Below are positions 50,714 through 56,857 of a stretch of DNA of 64,000 nucleotides, piece by piece (within the stretch, counting starts at the first letter, position 1; each line of letters starts with the position of its first letter). The translations under genes and the position numbers were made by a program. This DNA is from Candidatus Acidulodesulfobacterium acidiphilum (GTDB taxonomy: Bacteria; SZUA-79; Acidulodesulfobacterales; Acidulodesulfobacteraceae), in NCBI GenBank assembly GCA_008534395.1, contig SHMQ01000001.1:62001-126000 (forward strand). The letters run 5' to 3'. Under the pieces are notes generated by a model that saw only the letters and a program-made list of their open reading frames with translations, had not been told where the DNA came from and did no database searches.

Positions 50714-52114
50714 TTAATTTAATTTTATCTGTTTTTTCCATAAAATATATTTACTATCTAAATCTTGTTTTAGTGCTTCTGACATTAAAGTTTTAATAAT
50801 TTTAGGCAACCGCTTAATTTTTAAAAATGCCTTAAAAAATCTAACATAATGAGATTCCGGTTCAACAACTACCCATGCCTTAAGATATTTAGCTGCCTTA
50901 ACTAACGGGCGGTCATAAATTAGTTTAGCGGTTTGAAACGGCTTTAGTCGCGTGTCAAAATACTGCTTTTTTAAATTTAAACTAACGCTCCAGCCGATTA
51001 TATAACTTTCAACCGTTTTTTGATAAATTTCTTTTTCAAAATTTTCTTGACCTATGTACAAAATAACCTTAGGTGTCGTATAAGTAGGAAAATCATGTCC
51101 GACTTCCGAATTTTTTAAACTTAGAATTGCATGGACATTGCCGGAATTAATATGAATTATTTTAAAGCGAATGGTTACGGCTTTCAAAACAAAATTTTTA
51201 TTATAAATGCTTTTAAATGCCATTGACCCTTGCGGATTGTGGCAAACCTCGCATGAAATACCTTTTTTTGCATAAATACTTCGTTTCCACTCGCTGTATG
51301 TATTTTCAAACAATTTCCCGTCAAGCCTCCTTTGATCATGTCCAAATTGATGGCATTTTATACAAAAAAATGAATGATTGAATGCATTAGACGGAACAAA
51401 ACCTCCATGCACAATGTTTCCTTCTTTCATATATTTTTTAACGCCGGGCCCGAATCTGCGGTAATATCTGACATGACAGGCGGCGCAACTGACGCTTAAC
51501 GCACCCCTGCCCATCGGTATTTTTAGCATATTTAAAGCGACGACCATCGCTTTTTGCGCTTTTGAGCCATTTTTTAAGATATTCTTTTCCTTCGCCGTCA
51601 GTCCTTTATATCCGCCATGCTCTACATAATATTCGCCGATGGGCGAATGGCAGCTCATACAACTTTCTACCCAAGGCTTCCAGTGTTTTGATGTCATTTT
51701 TTTTAATAAAAGCTGCGCTACTACACCGGCATCCATCGAATGCGCCATTCTTGAATTTTTCCATTCCTCGTATTGATCGTAATGACATGCCATGCAAGAA
51801 GAGGGTGAAAGGGATTTTTGAATCTCGGGCCATTTATACGGGGGTTTCCCCTCATCGATGGGAGTTTTCCAGTAAATATTTAGGAACTTATGGGTATTTT
51901 TATGTGCGGCAAGTTTCTTCAAATATAAATATTTTTTATCGGCATTTTGATTTCTTACATTAACTTTAGCATAAACATAAATGGTTAAAAAAATAACGGA
52001 TGCAAAAAGTAACGGGATTAAAATTATGGGTAAATAAAGTGCGCTGTTCTTCAACCGCTTAAATCTAAAAATACCCTGAAGGGCATGCAACGATTTATAT
52101 TTCTCAAACTTCAC
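50714..52114 (-). CDS. Penta-heme c-type cytochrome, membrane-anchored
   Basis: 466 residues. One N-terminal membrane segment (about 28-49) anchors it on the periplasmic side. Five CxxCH sites are visible: CMACH, CMSCH, CAACH, CIKCH and CEVCH, all in the first ~290 residues. The rest is a beta-rich domain (HAILSLKNSEVGHDFPTYTTPKVIL) without motifs I know. It is a candidate periplasmic electron carrier or reductase. No gene for a partner oxidoreductase is adjacent. Confidence 0.85.
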   Translation of the reverse strand: MKFEKYKSLHALQGIFRFKRLKNSALYLPIILIPLLFASVIFLTIYVYAKVNVRNQNADKKYLYLKKLAAHKNTHKFLNIYWKTPIDEGKPPYKWPEIQKSLSPSSCMACHYDQYEEWKNSRMAHSMDAGVVAQLLLKKMTSKHWKPWVESCMSCHSPIGEYYVEHGGYKGLTAKEKNILKNGSKAQKAMVVALNMLKIPMGRGALSVSCAACHVRYYRRFGPGVKKYMKEGNIVHGGFVPSNAFNHSFFCIKCHQFGHDQRRLDGKLFENTYSEWKRSIYAKKGISCEVCHNPQGSMAFKSIYNKNFVLKAVTIRFKIIHINSGNVHAILSLKNSEVGHDFPTYTTPKVILYIGQENFEKEIYQKTVESYIIGWSVSLNLKKQYFDTRLKPFQTAKLIYDRPLVKAAKYLKAWVVVEPESHYVRFFKAFLKIKRLPKIIKTLMSEALKQDLDSKYILWKKQIKLN

Positions 52115-52253: not shown

Positions 52254-52457
52254 CTATTTCATTCCGCCGCCGTTTCCGCAGGGATTTTTCATTTTACTGT
52301 GAGAATTTTTCATCGAGGTTTTTTTCTTGCCGCAGGCATTTGACATGTTTTTGCCGCAAGGGTTTGACATCCCTGTATTACTTGCATTTGCGTTTCCAAC
52401 CGCAATCAAACCTAACATCATAAATGCGGCCATTGTCATGAAAATTAATTTTTTCAT
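52254..52457 (-). CDS. Small exported Cys/Asn/Gly repeat protein
   Basis: 67 residues with a signal peptide (core at about 5-22, cleavage near ANA). The mature part carries the unit N-(P/A)-C-G three times (SNPCGKN, SNACGKK, KNPCGNG) in a Lys/Met/Asn-rich context, suggesting a metal-binding peptide. The same MKNPCG unit begins the mature part of the exported protein at 53961. GGAGG precedes the ATG. Function unknown. Confidence 0.65.
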   Translation of the reverse strand: MKKLIFMTMAAFMMLGLIAVGNANASNTGMSNPCGKNMSNACGKKKTSMKNSHSKMKNPCGNGGGMK

Positions 52458-52575: not shown

Positions 52576-52692
52576 TTATACATCGGGCACAAATTTTGTT
52601 TTAAAGGTTTTCCTATAAAATTCGGAAAGTTTGCTTCGATAAACTTCAAAATCCCTGCCGCACTTTTGGCATTTATACTGATAAATTGGCAT
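52576..52692 (-). CDS. FmdB-like small zinc-ribbon protein
   Basis: 38 residues from the ATG at 52692: MPIYQYKCQKCGRDFEVYRS. This is the FmdB/CxxC regulatory-family N-terminus. Only one CxxC pair is present; the second, found in full FmdB, is missing. AGGA lies 8 bases upstream. An in-frame ATG at 52719 would give 47 residues. It may be a short family member or a degraded copy. Confidence 0.55.
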   Translation of the reverse strand: MPIYQYKCQKCGRDFEVYRSKLSEFYRKTFKTKFVPDV

Positions 52693-52876
52693 TTTTTGAT
52701 TCCTGTCTTTTTTGATCATTTTTTTATTATAACATATTATAATGATAATGAATTTATAAAAATGTCTCTTACGCGACAGAAATTTTTAAATAATAATGAT
52801 AATTTTATTAAACAAATTTTATTATCAATGGTTAAGAAGGAATAATTAGAAATAATTTAAAAGGGGGATTACTTTT

Positions 52877-53347: not shown

Positions 53348-53440
53348 AACTGGAAGAAAGGCATCTCATGCATTATAAGGTGACTCAAATCTGCTTTGGG
53401 AATAATTTTTGCATGTCAATAAAATAAGGAGGTGAAACCT

Positions 53441-53560
53441 ATGAAAAAGACATATAATGTCCCATTATTTCAGGAAATTCCCGCTGAAGAATTTTATAGT
53501 TTAATCATGGAAGATTACGGAATGAAAGATTTGTGCTATTCCTGCAAATCCTGCAAATAA
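53441..53560 (+). CDS. RiPP precursor peptide 1 (CxxCxxC)
   Basis: 39 residues, MKKTYNVPLFQEIPAEEFYS at the start, ending CYSCKSCK. A strong AGGAGGTG site lies 7 bases before the ATG. It shares the leader pattern (K-x-Y-x-x-P-x-F-x-E-I-x-A-E-E-F) with two further copies at 54617 and 56469. Cys32, 35 and 38 form the likely modified core. The radical SAM maturase at 55147 and PqqD-like protein at 56190 are the expected partners. A weak hairpin follows the stop codon and then a terminator-like stem. Confidence 0.85.
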   Translation: MKKTYNVPLFQEIPAEEFYSLIMEDYGMKDLCYSCKSCK

Positions 53561-53960
53561 GCGCGGTCGACGCTATTTTACTCACCCGCCTTCGTCAGCC
53601 TCATAACGAATAAGAAAGGCGGGTGGATTGTTCAAATACCCTTAGCTTTACCATAATTCATCTTGGATCACTCGGAAAAGCAATTTTCCTGCCATTACCC
53701 GCCGAATAAAAGGAAAAAATCTCCTGTCAATAATTTTAAGATAAATTAGCTTTAAGCGGGCGAGCAAGTATAATACTTATTATAAAACTTATGCCTTATT
53801 GTCACTTAAGTGAATTTTACAATCTTTTTTATAAATTATAATTAAATATAAATAAGATAAATAGGGTACAAAACATTATATCGTCAGGAAACCTGCATAT
53901 TGCCTGCAATATAATAATTATAAATTAATATTTAATTAAATGTAAATGGAGGGTTTTACC
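53561..53960. other. Region between precursor 1 and the exported protein gene
   Basis: About 400 bases. It starts with a small hairpin at 53555-53578 and a 10-bp stem at 53583-53592/53616-53625 (CACCCGCCTT), a probable terminator. The remainder is AT rich, with a likely promoter for the exported protein gene and its ribosome site GGAGGG at about 53948. No further ORF with a ribosome site was found. Confidence 0.5.
53583..53625 (+). terminator. Terminator-like stem after precursor 1
   Basis: 10-bp perfect stem CACCCGCCTT / AAGGCGGGTG with a 23-base loop; no long T-run follows, so efficiency is uncertain. Confidence 0.5.
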
Positions 53961-54581
53961 ATGATTAAAAAAATTATGCCTTTCGTATTAGTGCTTTTAC
54001 TGATGTTTTTTAGTTTCGGCATTCCAAAATCAAACGCCGCTATGATGAAAAATCCCTGCGGCGTCAACACGCGCAACGCTCATAACGCAGGAATGGCGGG
54101 AAAGAGGAGTGCCTTGATGAATACGCTGATAAATAGAACCACCTTAATGAAAATACACAGATTGATACCGTTCATGCAGCCTTACATTCATGCGATAATG
54201 ATTATGCCCTTCTTTTACAAGGTATATCCAGGCGCCCATCTAATATTTATGAATAGCAACATTTTAAAACTAACCCCTTACCAACTAAAACAAGAAGCTA
54301 TGATTGTCAAAAAAGTGCTTAGGGAAAATATATCTCTATTGAATATTTTAAATAGGTCGAGAAAAATGTTTTATATGGAGGTCAATAAAAACAATCCAAG
54401 TGCAAGTAAATTAATCAGCTATGAAAAAACATTCGAAAATACGGAAAAAATACTTGGAGAAAACATAATACGCGCACATATTAAGGCTACCCGCTTACTG
54501 ACTGCTTCACAAAGAAATATCCTCCGCAAATTATTAATTAACTGGCCTGTTGTAAATGTGTCATATCCAGTATATCCATAA
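53961..54581 (+). CDS. Exported helical protein within the peptide locus
   Basis: 206 residues from the ATG at 53961; GGAGGG 9 bases upstream decides this start over the in-frame ATG at 53946. Signal peptide core at about 5-20, cleavage near SNA. The mature part begins MMKNPCGVNTRNAHNAG, sharing NPCG with the exported peptide at 52254, and continues as a long, basic, helix-rich region (LTPYQLKQEAMIVKKVLREN). I recognise no family. It is 35 bases upstream of precursor 2, so it probably belongs to the same transcript. Confidence 0.7.
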   Translation: MIKKIMPFVLVLLLMFFSFGIPKSNAAMMKNPCGVNTRNAHNAGMAGKRSALMNTLINRTTLMKIHRLIPFMQPYIHAIMIMPFFYKVYPGAHLIFMNSNILKLTPYQLKQEAMIVKKVLRENISLLNILNRSRKMFYMEVNKNNPSASKLISYEKTFENTEKILGENIIRAHIKATRLLTASQRNILRKLLINWPVVNVSYPVYP

Positions 54582-54616
54582 AAAAATAAAAAACGAAAAA
54601 GGAGGTGAATTAATTT

Positions 54617-54736
54617 ATGAAAAGCAGATATGAAGCACCAGTGTTTCAGGAAATTTCGGCGGAAGAGTTCAACTGCATCCTTATGAAAAACTATGGAAAT
54701 ATAAATTCATGTCATACTTGCAGAGCTTGTTTTTAA
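54617..54736 (+). CDS. RiPP precursor peptide 2 (CxxCxxC)
   Basis: 39 residues, MKSRYEAPVFQEISAEEFNC at the start, ending CHTCRACF. GGAGGTG lies 9 bases before the ATG. It has the same leader pattern and the same Cys32/35/38 spacing as copies 1 and 3, with an extra Cys20. A 7-bp hairpin with a GTT loop (54736-54752) immediately follows the stop codon, then a 15-bp terminator. Confidence 0.85.
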   Translation: MKSRYEAPVFQEISAEEFNCILMKNYGNINSCHTCRACF

Positions 54737-54752
54737 TGCGCAGTTTGCGCAT
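54736..54752 (+). promoter_or_regulatory. SECIS-like hairpin after precursor 2
   Basis: ATGCGCAGTTTGCGCAT: a 7-bp stem with a GTT loop, 14 bases after codon 35. It has the same loop and nearly the same position as the hairpin after the TGA in precursor 3, although codon 35 here is TGC. Confidence 0.6.
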
Positions 54753-55146
54753 ACAAAACTAACGCCTTATCCTTTATGACGACAATATTTCCGAAATAAA
54801 ATAATAAAGGATAAGGCGTCTTAACAAAATCAATTCGTATCAATTTTTGACAATTCGGCACATGATACGAACATGCTTGCCGGTATAAAAAAGCAACCAA
54901 TAGCGATAAGGAAGGCCTATGTTCGTGTCTATAAACATTGTTTCCTTTAACAGTTTTTTTTGAGTCAAAATAAAATTATTTTTACAGTACCGCATATAAA
55001 AATAAAAAAAATAAGTTAGGTTTTAGTGGTATTAAATTTCTTAATCGGGATTTGGGATATTCATTTTTTTTGCAATGTAAATTTGAAAATAATTTGAAAT
55101 ATTTTAGATGAATTGAAAATTTAAAAATATACTGTATTATTTAAAT
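54737..55146. other. Region between precursor 2 and the maturase
   Basis: About 410 bases. After the terminator (54762-54819) it is AT rich. A probable promoter for the maturase lies close to it: TTGAAA, 16 bases, TATTAT (about 55108-55135). No further precursor copy or ORF with a ribosome site was found. Confidence 0.5.
54762..54819 (+). terminator. Terminator after precursor 2
   Basis: 15-bp perfect stem ACGCCTTATCCTTTA (54762-54776) with its complement at 54805-54819. Confidence 0.8.
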
Positions 55147-56163
55147 ATGGATGTTTATAATAATAAAAAACCTGATAAAGAATTTTACGTGCAATGGCAT
55201 TTTATAGATTCATGCAATTTAAGATGCAAACATTGCTATCAAAACGGTTACAGCAATAAAAACATCGATTTCGATATTCTGAACGCTATATTTAAAAAAT
55301 TAGACGCAGCAATGGCTAAATGGAATATGAAATGTTATGTTTCTCTGACCGGCGGCGAACCTTTTTTAAAACCTGAAGGACTTTTCTATTTAATGGATTT
55401 AATTGAAAATTCGGATAATTTTAAAAACATCGCAGTTCTGACAAACGGAACTTTAATGACTGATAAGTTAATCGAAAAACTGAAAACTTATAAAAAATTA
55501 TCAGAAATTCAGGTGTCGCTTGACGGTCACGATGAAAAAACACATGATGCAATAAGGGGGGAGGGAACTTTTTTAAAAACGGTAAGCGCGGTTACAATGT
55601 TAAAAAATTCGGGAATAAAAACGGTTTTGATGTTTACGCTTCATAAAAAAAATACCGCATCGGCTTCTAAAATGCCGGAACTTGCAGCTTCGCTTAATAT
55701 AGACGCTTTAACGGTAGAAAGAATGACTACTATGAACGATAAGGAAAAAGACGAATTTTTCATCGAAGCGGAAGAGTTAAAAAAAATATATACCGACGTT
55801 TACGAAAAATCGAAAATCGAATTCAAAAATTCCAATACCAAACTTTCGACGTCGCGTCCGTTATGGAACCTGATAGACGAAAATACCGGCGGATATTGTC
55901 CTATAGGTTTATCGTCCTTATGTATATTGCATGACGGCACGATGCTCCCATGCAGAAGGCTTTATCTTCCGCTCGGAAATATCTTAACGGACGGACTATT
56001 TAAAGTATGGTATAATTCAGATATCTTATGGAATTTAAGAAAAAGGAACGGTGAAAACGAATGCAATAATTGCGCTAAGTCCGATAGATGCGGCGGATGC
56101 AAAGCAATAAGCTATTATTATAATCACGATTTCAATTCAAAAGACCCTCAGTGCTGGATATAA
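55147..56163 (+). CDS. Radical SAM/SPASM peptide maturase
   Basis: 338 residues. The radical SAM cluster is CNLRCKHCY (Cys23, 27, 30). SAM-binding segments are SLTGGEPFL and VSLDGHDEKTHDAIRG. A C-terminal SPASM region holds further Cys: YCPIGLSSLC, PCRR, ECNNCAKSDRCGGC and QCWI, enough for two auxiliary 4Fe-4S clusters. It modifies ribosomal peptides, here probably the three 39-residue precursors around it. It resembles what I recall of 'selenobiotic' maturases; a profile search would decide. A PqqD-like gene follows. Confidence 0.9.
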   Translation: MDVYNNKKPDKEFYVQWHFIDSCNLRCKHCYQNGYSNKNIDFDILNAIFKKLDAAMAKWNMKCYVSLTGGEPFLKPEGLFYLMDLIENSDNFKNIAVLTNGTLMTDKLIEKLKTYKKLSEIQVSLDGHDEKTHDAIRGEGTFLKTVSAVTMLKNSGIKTVLMFTLHKKNTASASKMPELAASLNIDALTVERMTTMNDKEKDEFFIEAEELKKIYTDVYEKSKIEFKNSNTKLSTSRPLWNLIDENTGGYCPIGLSSLCILHDGTMLPCRRLYLPLGNILTDGLFKVWYNSDILWNLRKRNGENECNNCAKSDRCGGCKAISYYYNHDFNSKDPQCWI

Positions 56164-56189
56164 AAATAATTCTCAAAAGGAATGACGAA

Positions 56190-56450
56190 ATGCTAAAACT
56201 TGCGGATACGGTGTCGATAAAACAAGACGAAACGTACTATATTTTTTTTGATAACGAAACCGGCGATATTTATAAACTTAACGAAATATCCTATAAAATT
56301 TTATCTTTATGCGACGGAAGTACGACTAACGAAGATATATTGTCAACTATAATGCAGGAATTTAACGTAACCTACCAGGAAGCAAAAAAAGACTTTGATA
56401 AATTAATTCAAACGCTTTTAAGCAAAAAATATATTTATAACAACGAATAA
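56190..56450 (+). CDS. PqqD-like peptide chaperone (RiPP recognition element)
   Basis: About 86 residues from the ATG at 56190, with AAGGA in front. The PqqD fold is recognisable: ETYYIFFDNETGDIYKLNEISYKILSLCDGSTTNEDIL, then FNVTYQEAKKDFDKLIQTLLSKKYI. Such proteins hold the leader of a precursor peptide for the radical SAM enzyme. A longer reading from a GTG at 56151 overlaps the maturase end and is less likely. It is 18 bases upstream of precursor 3, so the maturase, carrier and precursor 3 form one operon. Confidence 0.85.
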   Translation: MLKLADTVSIKQDETYYIFFDNETGDIYKLNEISYKILSLCDGSTTNEDILSTIMQEFNVTYQEAKKDFDKLIQTLLSKKYIYNNE

Positions 56451-56468
56451 CAAAAGGAGGTGACTTTT

Positions 56469-56588
56469 ATGAAAAAGGTGTATGATGCGCCGATGTTCGC
56501 AGAAATTCCGGCAGAAGAATTTTATTCATTAATTAACAAAGATTACGGCTTAAAGGATTCTTGCTATTCCTGAAAGGAGTGCAAATAA
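56469..56588 (+). CDS. RiPP precursor 3, putative selenopeptide (in-frame TGA)
   Basis: 39 codons, MKKVYDAPMFAEIPAEEFYS at the start. Codon 35 is TGA (56571-56573), where copies 1 and 2 have Cys; the frame then continues K-E-C-K to TAA. If TGA is read as selenocysteine the tail is CYSUKECK. AGGAGGTG lies 6 bases before the ATG. A 7-bp hairpin with a GTT loop starts 13 bases after TGA, fitting a bacterial SECIS. If TGA were a plain stop, the product would end at residue 34 and keep only Cys32. Sec genes are not in the window. Confidence 0.75.
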
Positions 56589-56603
56589 GCGCAGTTTGCG
56601 CTT
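56587..56603 (+). promoter_or_regulatory. Candidate SECIS element of precursor 3
   Basis: AAGCGCAGTTTGCGCTT: a 7-bp stem with a GTT loop, overlapping the TAA. The loop begins 20 bases after the TGA and its first base is G. Both match the bacterial SECIS description as I recall it (loop 16-37 bases from UGA, G in the first two loop positions). Confidence 0.65.
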
Positions 56604-56610
56604 AATTAAA

Positions 56611-56657
56611 AATTCTCCGACCGTTCGGCATTATTTTAAAAAAACGGTCGGAGAATT
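56611..56657 (+). terminator. Terminator after precursor 3
   Basis: 15-bp perfect stem AATTCTCCGACCGTT (56611-56625) with its complement at 56643-56657, followed by ATTTT. Confidence 0.85.
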
Positions 56658-56857
56658 ATTTTGAAATCTATATTGTATATTTGTAAACCTATTGTAACCG
56701 TCCTTTTCTTATTTTTTAAATTTTTTACGTTCTATAATAATTTCATAATAAATTTAATTTGACTTTTTTATATTACCGATATATAATACAGACTGGTTGG
56801 TATGTTTGTATTACCTGCTTAAAACAAAACTTATTATAATTTAAAGGAGGATTTATT

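Follow-up and report, generated by a model that had tools for sequence, protein, structure and literature searches.

Relation to described systems

In the selenobiotic SbtM-SbtA system ('selenobacteriocin'), a radical S-adenosylmethionine (SAM) enzyme with a SPASM domain is encoded beside a precursor that contains selenocysteine (Sec, U) and a selenocysteine insertion sequence (SECIS), and Cys may replace Sec. Of the 119 prokaryotic selenoprotein families catalogued in a 2026 inventory, only one is recognizable as belonging to the ribosomally synthesized and post-translationally modified peptides (RiPPs), namely TIGR04081 'selenobacteriocin', with two SGUG sites. Here we describe a locus in a 64,000-nucleotide stretch of DNA (the window) from Candidatus Acidulodesulfobacterium acidiphilum, in which three genes for short peptides (precursors 1, 2, and 3) flank a radical SAM/SPASM maturase and a PqqD-family protein between window positions 53441 and 56588. 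The full best explanation, to which we assign a probability of about 0.8 from comparative sequence analysis, is that the locus directs the synthesis of a selenocysteine-containing RiPP; if so, it would represent a second Sec-containing RiPP family, unrelated to TIGR04081.

A preliminary description of the locus, drawn from its sequence, had named the 'selenobiotic' pair as a possible fit, which was right in pointing to a Sec-bearing precursor and wrong as to the family. The maturase scored 145 bits against TIGR04082 (SbtM), far under the curated NCBIfam cut-off of 350 bits, and aligned only to model positions 199-515, with the N-terminal 198 positions unmatched; SbtM is longer at its N-terminus by ~200 residues. 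True SbtM members of other genomes formed a separate clade with support of 100/100, and the TIGR04081 (SbtA) model did not match the precursors. SbtA of L158, the one SbtM-associated precursor that was readable, is secreted and has SGUGG twice, whereas the precursors here are 39-residue leader-core peptides with a CxxUxxC core and a separate PqqD protein. On the grounds of cut-off, clade, core, and precursor architecture, we rejected an SbtM/SbtA assignment. The best-scoring NCBIfam model was TIGR04340 (ACGX), at 150 bits over a full-length alignment, but this assignment was also rejected because the cut-off is 400 bits, and the precursors lack ACGX repeats. Thus, the profile comparison proposed in the preliminary description left the maturase under the curated cut-offs of both families.

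More distant likenesses were found to SkfB, CteB, and SuiB, which share the radical SAM/SPASM fold and of which SkfB and CteB act on Cys-containing peptides, but identity is ~20%, and here the RiPP recognition element (RRE) is a separate PqqD protein and Sec stands in the core. Lasso peptide systems likewise combine a discrete PqqD-like RRE with a leader that contains YxxPx[L/V/I/F/A], but the present locus has no lasso cyclase or protease and has radical SAM chemistry instead. A CxxUxxC peptide of this kind is not in the 2026 inventory, and, as judged from sequence, the locus looks like a new selenium-containing modified-peptide family, distinct from the selenobiotic system.

Three precursor peptides and their spread

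Precursor 1 (MKKTYNVPLFQEIPAEEFYSLIMEDYGMKDLCYSCKSCK; 53441-53560) and precursor 2 (MKSRYEAPVFQEISAEEFNCILMKNYGNINSCHTCRACF; 54617-54736, with a TGC Cys codon at 54719-54721) are Cys forms, and precursor 3 (MKKVYDAPMFAEIPAEEFYSLINKDYGLKDSCYS-U-KECK; 56469-56588) is the putative Sec form; all are on the + strand. They share a K-x-Y-x-x-P-x-F-x-E-I-x-A-E-E-F leader pattern and a C32-x2-[C/U]35-x2-C38 tail, and each is preceded by a strong Shine-Dalgarno sequence, AAGGAGGTGA for precursor 1 (53426-53435, +) and the close variants AGGAGGTGA for precursor 2 (54600-54608, +) and AAAGGAGGTGA for precursor 3 (56453-56463, +). The positions, leader pattern, tail, and ribosome sites of three 39-residue open reading frames (ORFs), as given in the preliminary description, were confirmed by direct reading, with one correction. 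Tail position 35, whose residue had been left unnamed, is TGA in the third ORF (56571-56573, +), so that under translation table 11 this ORF ends at residue 34 and reaches 39 residues, with the core SCYS-U-KECK, only if TGA-35 is read as Sec. For the same reason, Sec-form genes escape standard gene calling.

A precursor profile matched 27 of the 30 genomes of the bacterial family (E down to 4e-25), which bears out the expectation that the short ORFs would be conserved in relatives; no homologues were detected in the ~356 genomes outside the family among the 386 searched in all. A one-sequence search of genome contigs yielded five close metagenome-assembled genomes (MAGs) only. At least one TGA-form precursor was present in 23 of the family genomes, and four had Cys forms only. 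No signal peptide was seen on the precursors. Judging from the names of relatives' MAGs and from general knowledge, we take the host habitat to be probably acid mine drainage.

Evidence for selenocysteine at codon 35 of precursor 3

In all 22 distinct Sec-form copies, codon 35 is TGA, never TAA or TAG, and nine distinct paralogues have Cys at this position. Beyond the TGA, codons 36, 38, and 39 of the Sec forms (AAG/AAA, TGC/TGT, and AAA/AAG) differ only synonymously and encode K, C, and K, and codon 37 encodes E (GAG/GAA) or S (TCN). Conservation of this kind beyond a stop codon requires translation past it.

A bacterial SECIS-type hairpin, UAAGCGCA-GUU-UGCGCUUA (56586-56604, +), begins on the TAA stop codon of precursor 3 and places its apical loop 20 nt 3' of the UGA. 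Every one of the 22 Sec copies has a hairpin whose start lies 12-19 nt 3' of the UGA; AUGUGC-AGUUG-GCACAU and ACGCGCA-GGU-UGCGCGU are examples from other copies. Compensatory changes occurred in 4/6 pairs, and 93.8% of cells were paired compared to 83.8% in shuffles. Published criteria for a bacterial SECIS (bSECIS) are a G[G/U] loop located 16-37 nt from the UGA, a stem of 4-16 bp, and a minimum free energy (MFE) of -7.5 kcal/mol or lower (PMC13188914). The loop, stem, and spacing of 21 of the 22 Sec copies, as well as those of an additional copy on contig C66 of the source genome (G000), fell within these limits, and ~2% of background TGAs had a suitable loop, stem, and spacing at -6 kcal/mol or better. 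For the precursor 3 hairpin the MFE was -9.2 kcal/mol, within the published limit. The source genome also encodes SelA (558 bits), SelD (370 bits, with its own in-frame TGA), and SelB (315 bits), and tRNA-Sec was found in most relatives, with anticodon UCA in those checked. UGA conservation, the SECIS, and the Sec machinery together support decoding of UGA-35 of precursor 3 as Sec.

If the TGA were instead a true stop, precursor 3 would either be only 34 residues long or be a gene in decay, which is how the standard code reads it and which agrees with one decayed precursor copy, on contig C88 of G008, that carries both TGA and TAA. We regard this possibility as highly improbable given the invariance of TGA, the synonymous conservation downstream of it, the covarying SECIS, and the Sec machinery.

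Maturase, probable leader recognition, and conservation of the operon

The maturase gene (55147-56163, +) encodes a 338-residue protein with radical SAM (PF04055) and SPASM (PF13186) domains, whose CxxxCxxC motif (C23, C27, and C30) and SPASM cysteines (C251, C269, C306, C309, C315, C318, and C336) were invariant in 18 aligned sequences. Its end overlaps the gene for a PqqD-family protein (56151-56450, +; PF05402, 53 bits), a putative leader-binding RRE, so that the arrangement of precursors around a radical SAM/SPASM enzyme and a PqqD-like protein is as first described. The PqqD gene was the next gene in 18/20 maturase loci and the sole widely conserved neighbor, with a precursor next in most, and this maturase-PqqD-precursor core operon recurs across the bacterial family; a second maturase-PqqD pair of the source genome lies on contig C36. 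An AlphaFold model of the maturase (pLDDT, a per-residue confidence score, 87) gave SkfB, SuiB, CteB, and anSME as best PDB matches, all of which are SPASM enzymes that modify peptides or proteins, in keeping with the kinship that the preliminary description had expected. The precursor leader motif, YxxPx[F/L/I], is a subset of YxxPx[L/V/I/F/A], to which the discrete RREs of lasso systems bind (PMC13381572). The locus thus combines the CxxxCxxC and SPASM cysteines, conserved operon, short precursor, and RRE of a radical SAM-SPASM RiPP system, and the earlier assignment to this class is well supported by the conserved block, the leader motif, and the peptide-modifying SPASM fold.

Several observations weigh against a Sec-containing RiPP. 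About half of the hairpins are weaker than the published -7.5 kcal/mol limit, and the relatives are close kin, so the copy counts are not independent. In G019 (L112), a 97% complete genome, the Sec precursor is intact but a maturase of this family is missing, and in several genomes the precursor and maturase genes stand apart. Finally, tRNA-Sec was not found in the assembly of the source genome. In the nearest relative, G012, however, the stretches flanking tRNA-Sec correspond to the very end of contig C46 and the first base of contig C64 in the source genome, whose tRNA-Sec therefore most likely fell into the gap between these contigs. Since a gap at the syntenic place would explain it, we did not take the missing tRNA-Sec as evidence against Sec.

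The G019 precursor and the unlinked precursors would also be expected if the peptides acted without modification, as small Sec/Cys proteins (CxxUxxC) with a redox or metal-binding role, and the maturase had another substrate. In addition, CxxU is known as a redox motif (PMC13188914). This alternative is improbable in view of the conserved leader-type N-terminus with YxxPxF, the adjoining PqqD gene, and the tight operon in most genomes.

Proposed maturation and candidate products

For the Sec-containing RiPP that we favor, SelB and the SECIS hairpin overlapping the stop region would direct Sec insertion at UGA-35, so that the peptide reaches 39 residues and has Cys-x2-Sec-x2-Cys as its C-terminal core, and precursors 1 and 2 would supply Cys at position 35. 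The PqqD protein would dock the YxxPxF leader and present the peptide to the radical SAM/SPASM enzyme, which would form C-S/C-Se bonds in the core as a thio-/selenoether or a thio(seleno)oxazole-type ring, and the leader would be removed. The core chalcogens are the likely targets of the maturase, because Cys32, Cys/Sec35, and Cys38 are the sole invariant residues of the core in our alignment, and radical C-S/C-Se bond formation is the most likely reaction. A comparison of neighbors at maturase loci revealed no transporter or immunity gene conserved beside the precursors. As the core is near-unchanged through the family and such genes are lacking, the product is probably a vertically retained housekeeping peptide, redox-active or metal-binding, rather than an antibiotic.

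It is quite possible, and we propose it tentatively, that the bonds are sactipeptide- or ranthipeptide-like thio-/selenoethers from Cys/Sec to carbons of nearby residues. SkfB and CteB, the solved structures nearest to the maturase in both sequence and fold, form thioethers, and no core residues other than the three chalcogens are invariant; against this, the core lacks an invariant acceptor residue, is short, and has a 3-residue spacing that is not typical of sactipeptide hairpins.

An SbtM-like thio(seleno)oxazole at Cys/Sec, giving a metallophore-like peptide, seems rather unlikely, although SbtM uses Cys and Sec substrates, which lose four hydrogens (PMC11002830), thiooxazole RiPPs bind Cu(I) (PMC12538549), TIGR04082 is among the nearest NCBIfam models, and heavy-metal and DsrE genes lie near the locus. 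The maturase is under the SbtM cut-off and in a separate clade, and Gly never follows Cys/Sec here, unlike in SGUGG of SbtA or in the Lys-Cys-Gly in which the MmrA rings (bulbicupramide) sit (PMC12538549).

Cys and Sec paralogues

The additional precursor copy of the source genome, on contig C66 (L107) and thus outside the window, reads MKRIYEMPVFLEIPIEEFNFIMLANYGKTDSCYV-U-RACF with TGA at codon 35. The DNA 3' of this TGA (AGAGCTTGTTTTTAATGCGCAGTTTGCGCATACAAAACT) is identical to the DNA 3' of the TGC of precursor 2, and an intact SECIS-type hairpin, AUGCGCA-GUU-UGCGCAU (54736-54752, +), the same as that of the C66 copy, stands behind the precursor 2 Cys codon. This hairpin is probably a fossil SECIS. 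Because of the identical downstream DNA, precursor 2 looks like a TGA-to-TGC (Sec-to-Cys) conversion that retained its SECIS. The hairpin of precursor 1 has decayed, and no hairpin within the bSECIS limits was found for the Cys copies in G012 or G017. G017 has Cys copies only, yet keeps selA, selD, selB, and tRNA-Sec; thus, exchange of Sec and Cys is not forced by loss of the Sec trait. Natural Cys and Sec versions side by side would offer a direct test of what selenium contributes to radical SAM chemistry.

Related systems in other bacteria

Maturases 30-35% identical to this one were found in G141, G278, and G314 (L163, L162, and L173) beside peptides ending KVCRK-U-KS-U or KVCRK-U-SS-U-KS-U, which carry SECIS-like hairpins and are possible multi-Sec RiPPs. 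tRNA-Sec is present in G141 and G278, and in these two genomes the second maturase may start at a GTG that overlaps the first TGA, which could then be a plain stop. Cys-only peptides ending CRQCSGCHGCR or CRQCSSCHACR (CxxCxxCxxC) were seen beside 36-39% identical maturases in L040 (~4449) and L041 (~7021, - strand).

It is conceivable, but doubtful enough that we offer it only as a suggestion, that an undescribed chalcogen-triad RiPP class, C-x2-[C/U]-x2-[C/U], occurs across several unrelated families of bacteria, with CxxUxxC here, KVCRKU-x-S-U in G141, G278, and G314, and CxxCxxCxxC in G025 and G021. Radical chemistry on Sec would then produce a selenium redox or metal cofactor, and Sec and Cys paralogues would be matured in parallel in one cell.

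Neighboring features

Each precursor was described initially as having its own terminator. Long inverted repeats do follow all three, with 10-nt arms for precursor 1 (53583-53625, +), perfect 16-nt arms for precursor 2 (54762-54819, +), and 18-nt arms for precursor 3 (56608-56660, +), but they lack a T-run, and no intrinsic terminators were found 3' of the precursors. An Rfam search of the window gave no matches.

An unrelated secreted 211-residue ORF (53946-54581, +), with no Pfam match, separates precursors 1 and 2. This ORF and another in L107 (2840-3430, -) have NPCG/NACGKKK following the signal peptide, together with LTxxQ-like motifs of the Spy/CpxP type, and both stand just upstream of a precursor-2-type peptide. 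A secreted 67-residue protein with the motifs NPCGK, NACGK, and NPCGN (52254-52457, -) has an SbtA/HvfA-like look, and its 96% identical paralogue (L032, 3524-3724) is encoded close to the second maturase, on C36. Secreted NPCGK/NACGK proteins were considered as maturase substrates and rejected, as G000 and G012 were the only genomes with such proteins close to the maturase.

A multiheme cytochrome (50714-52114, -) matched the (seleno)protein ExtKL weakly (32 bits); a paralogue of it is likewise found on C36, close to the second maturase. An FmdB-type zinc ribbon on the same contig (L032, 1808-1927) ends ...GGGFG-TGA-GT with an in-frame TGA, and the window copy of this zinc ribbon (52576-52719, -) is truncated.

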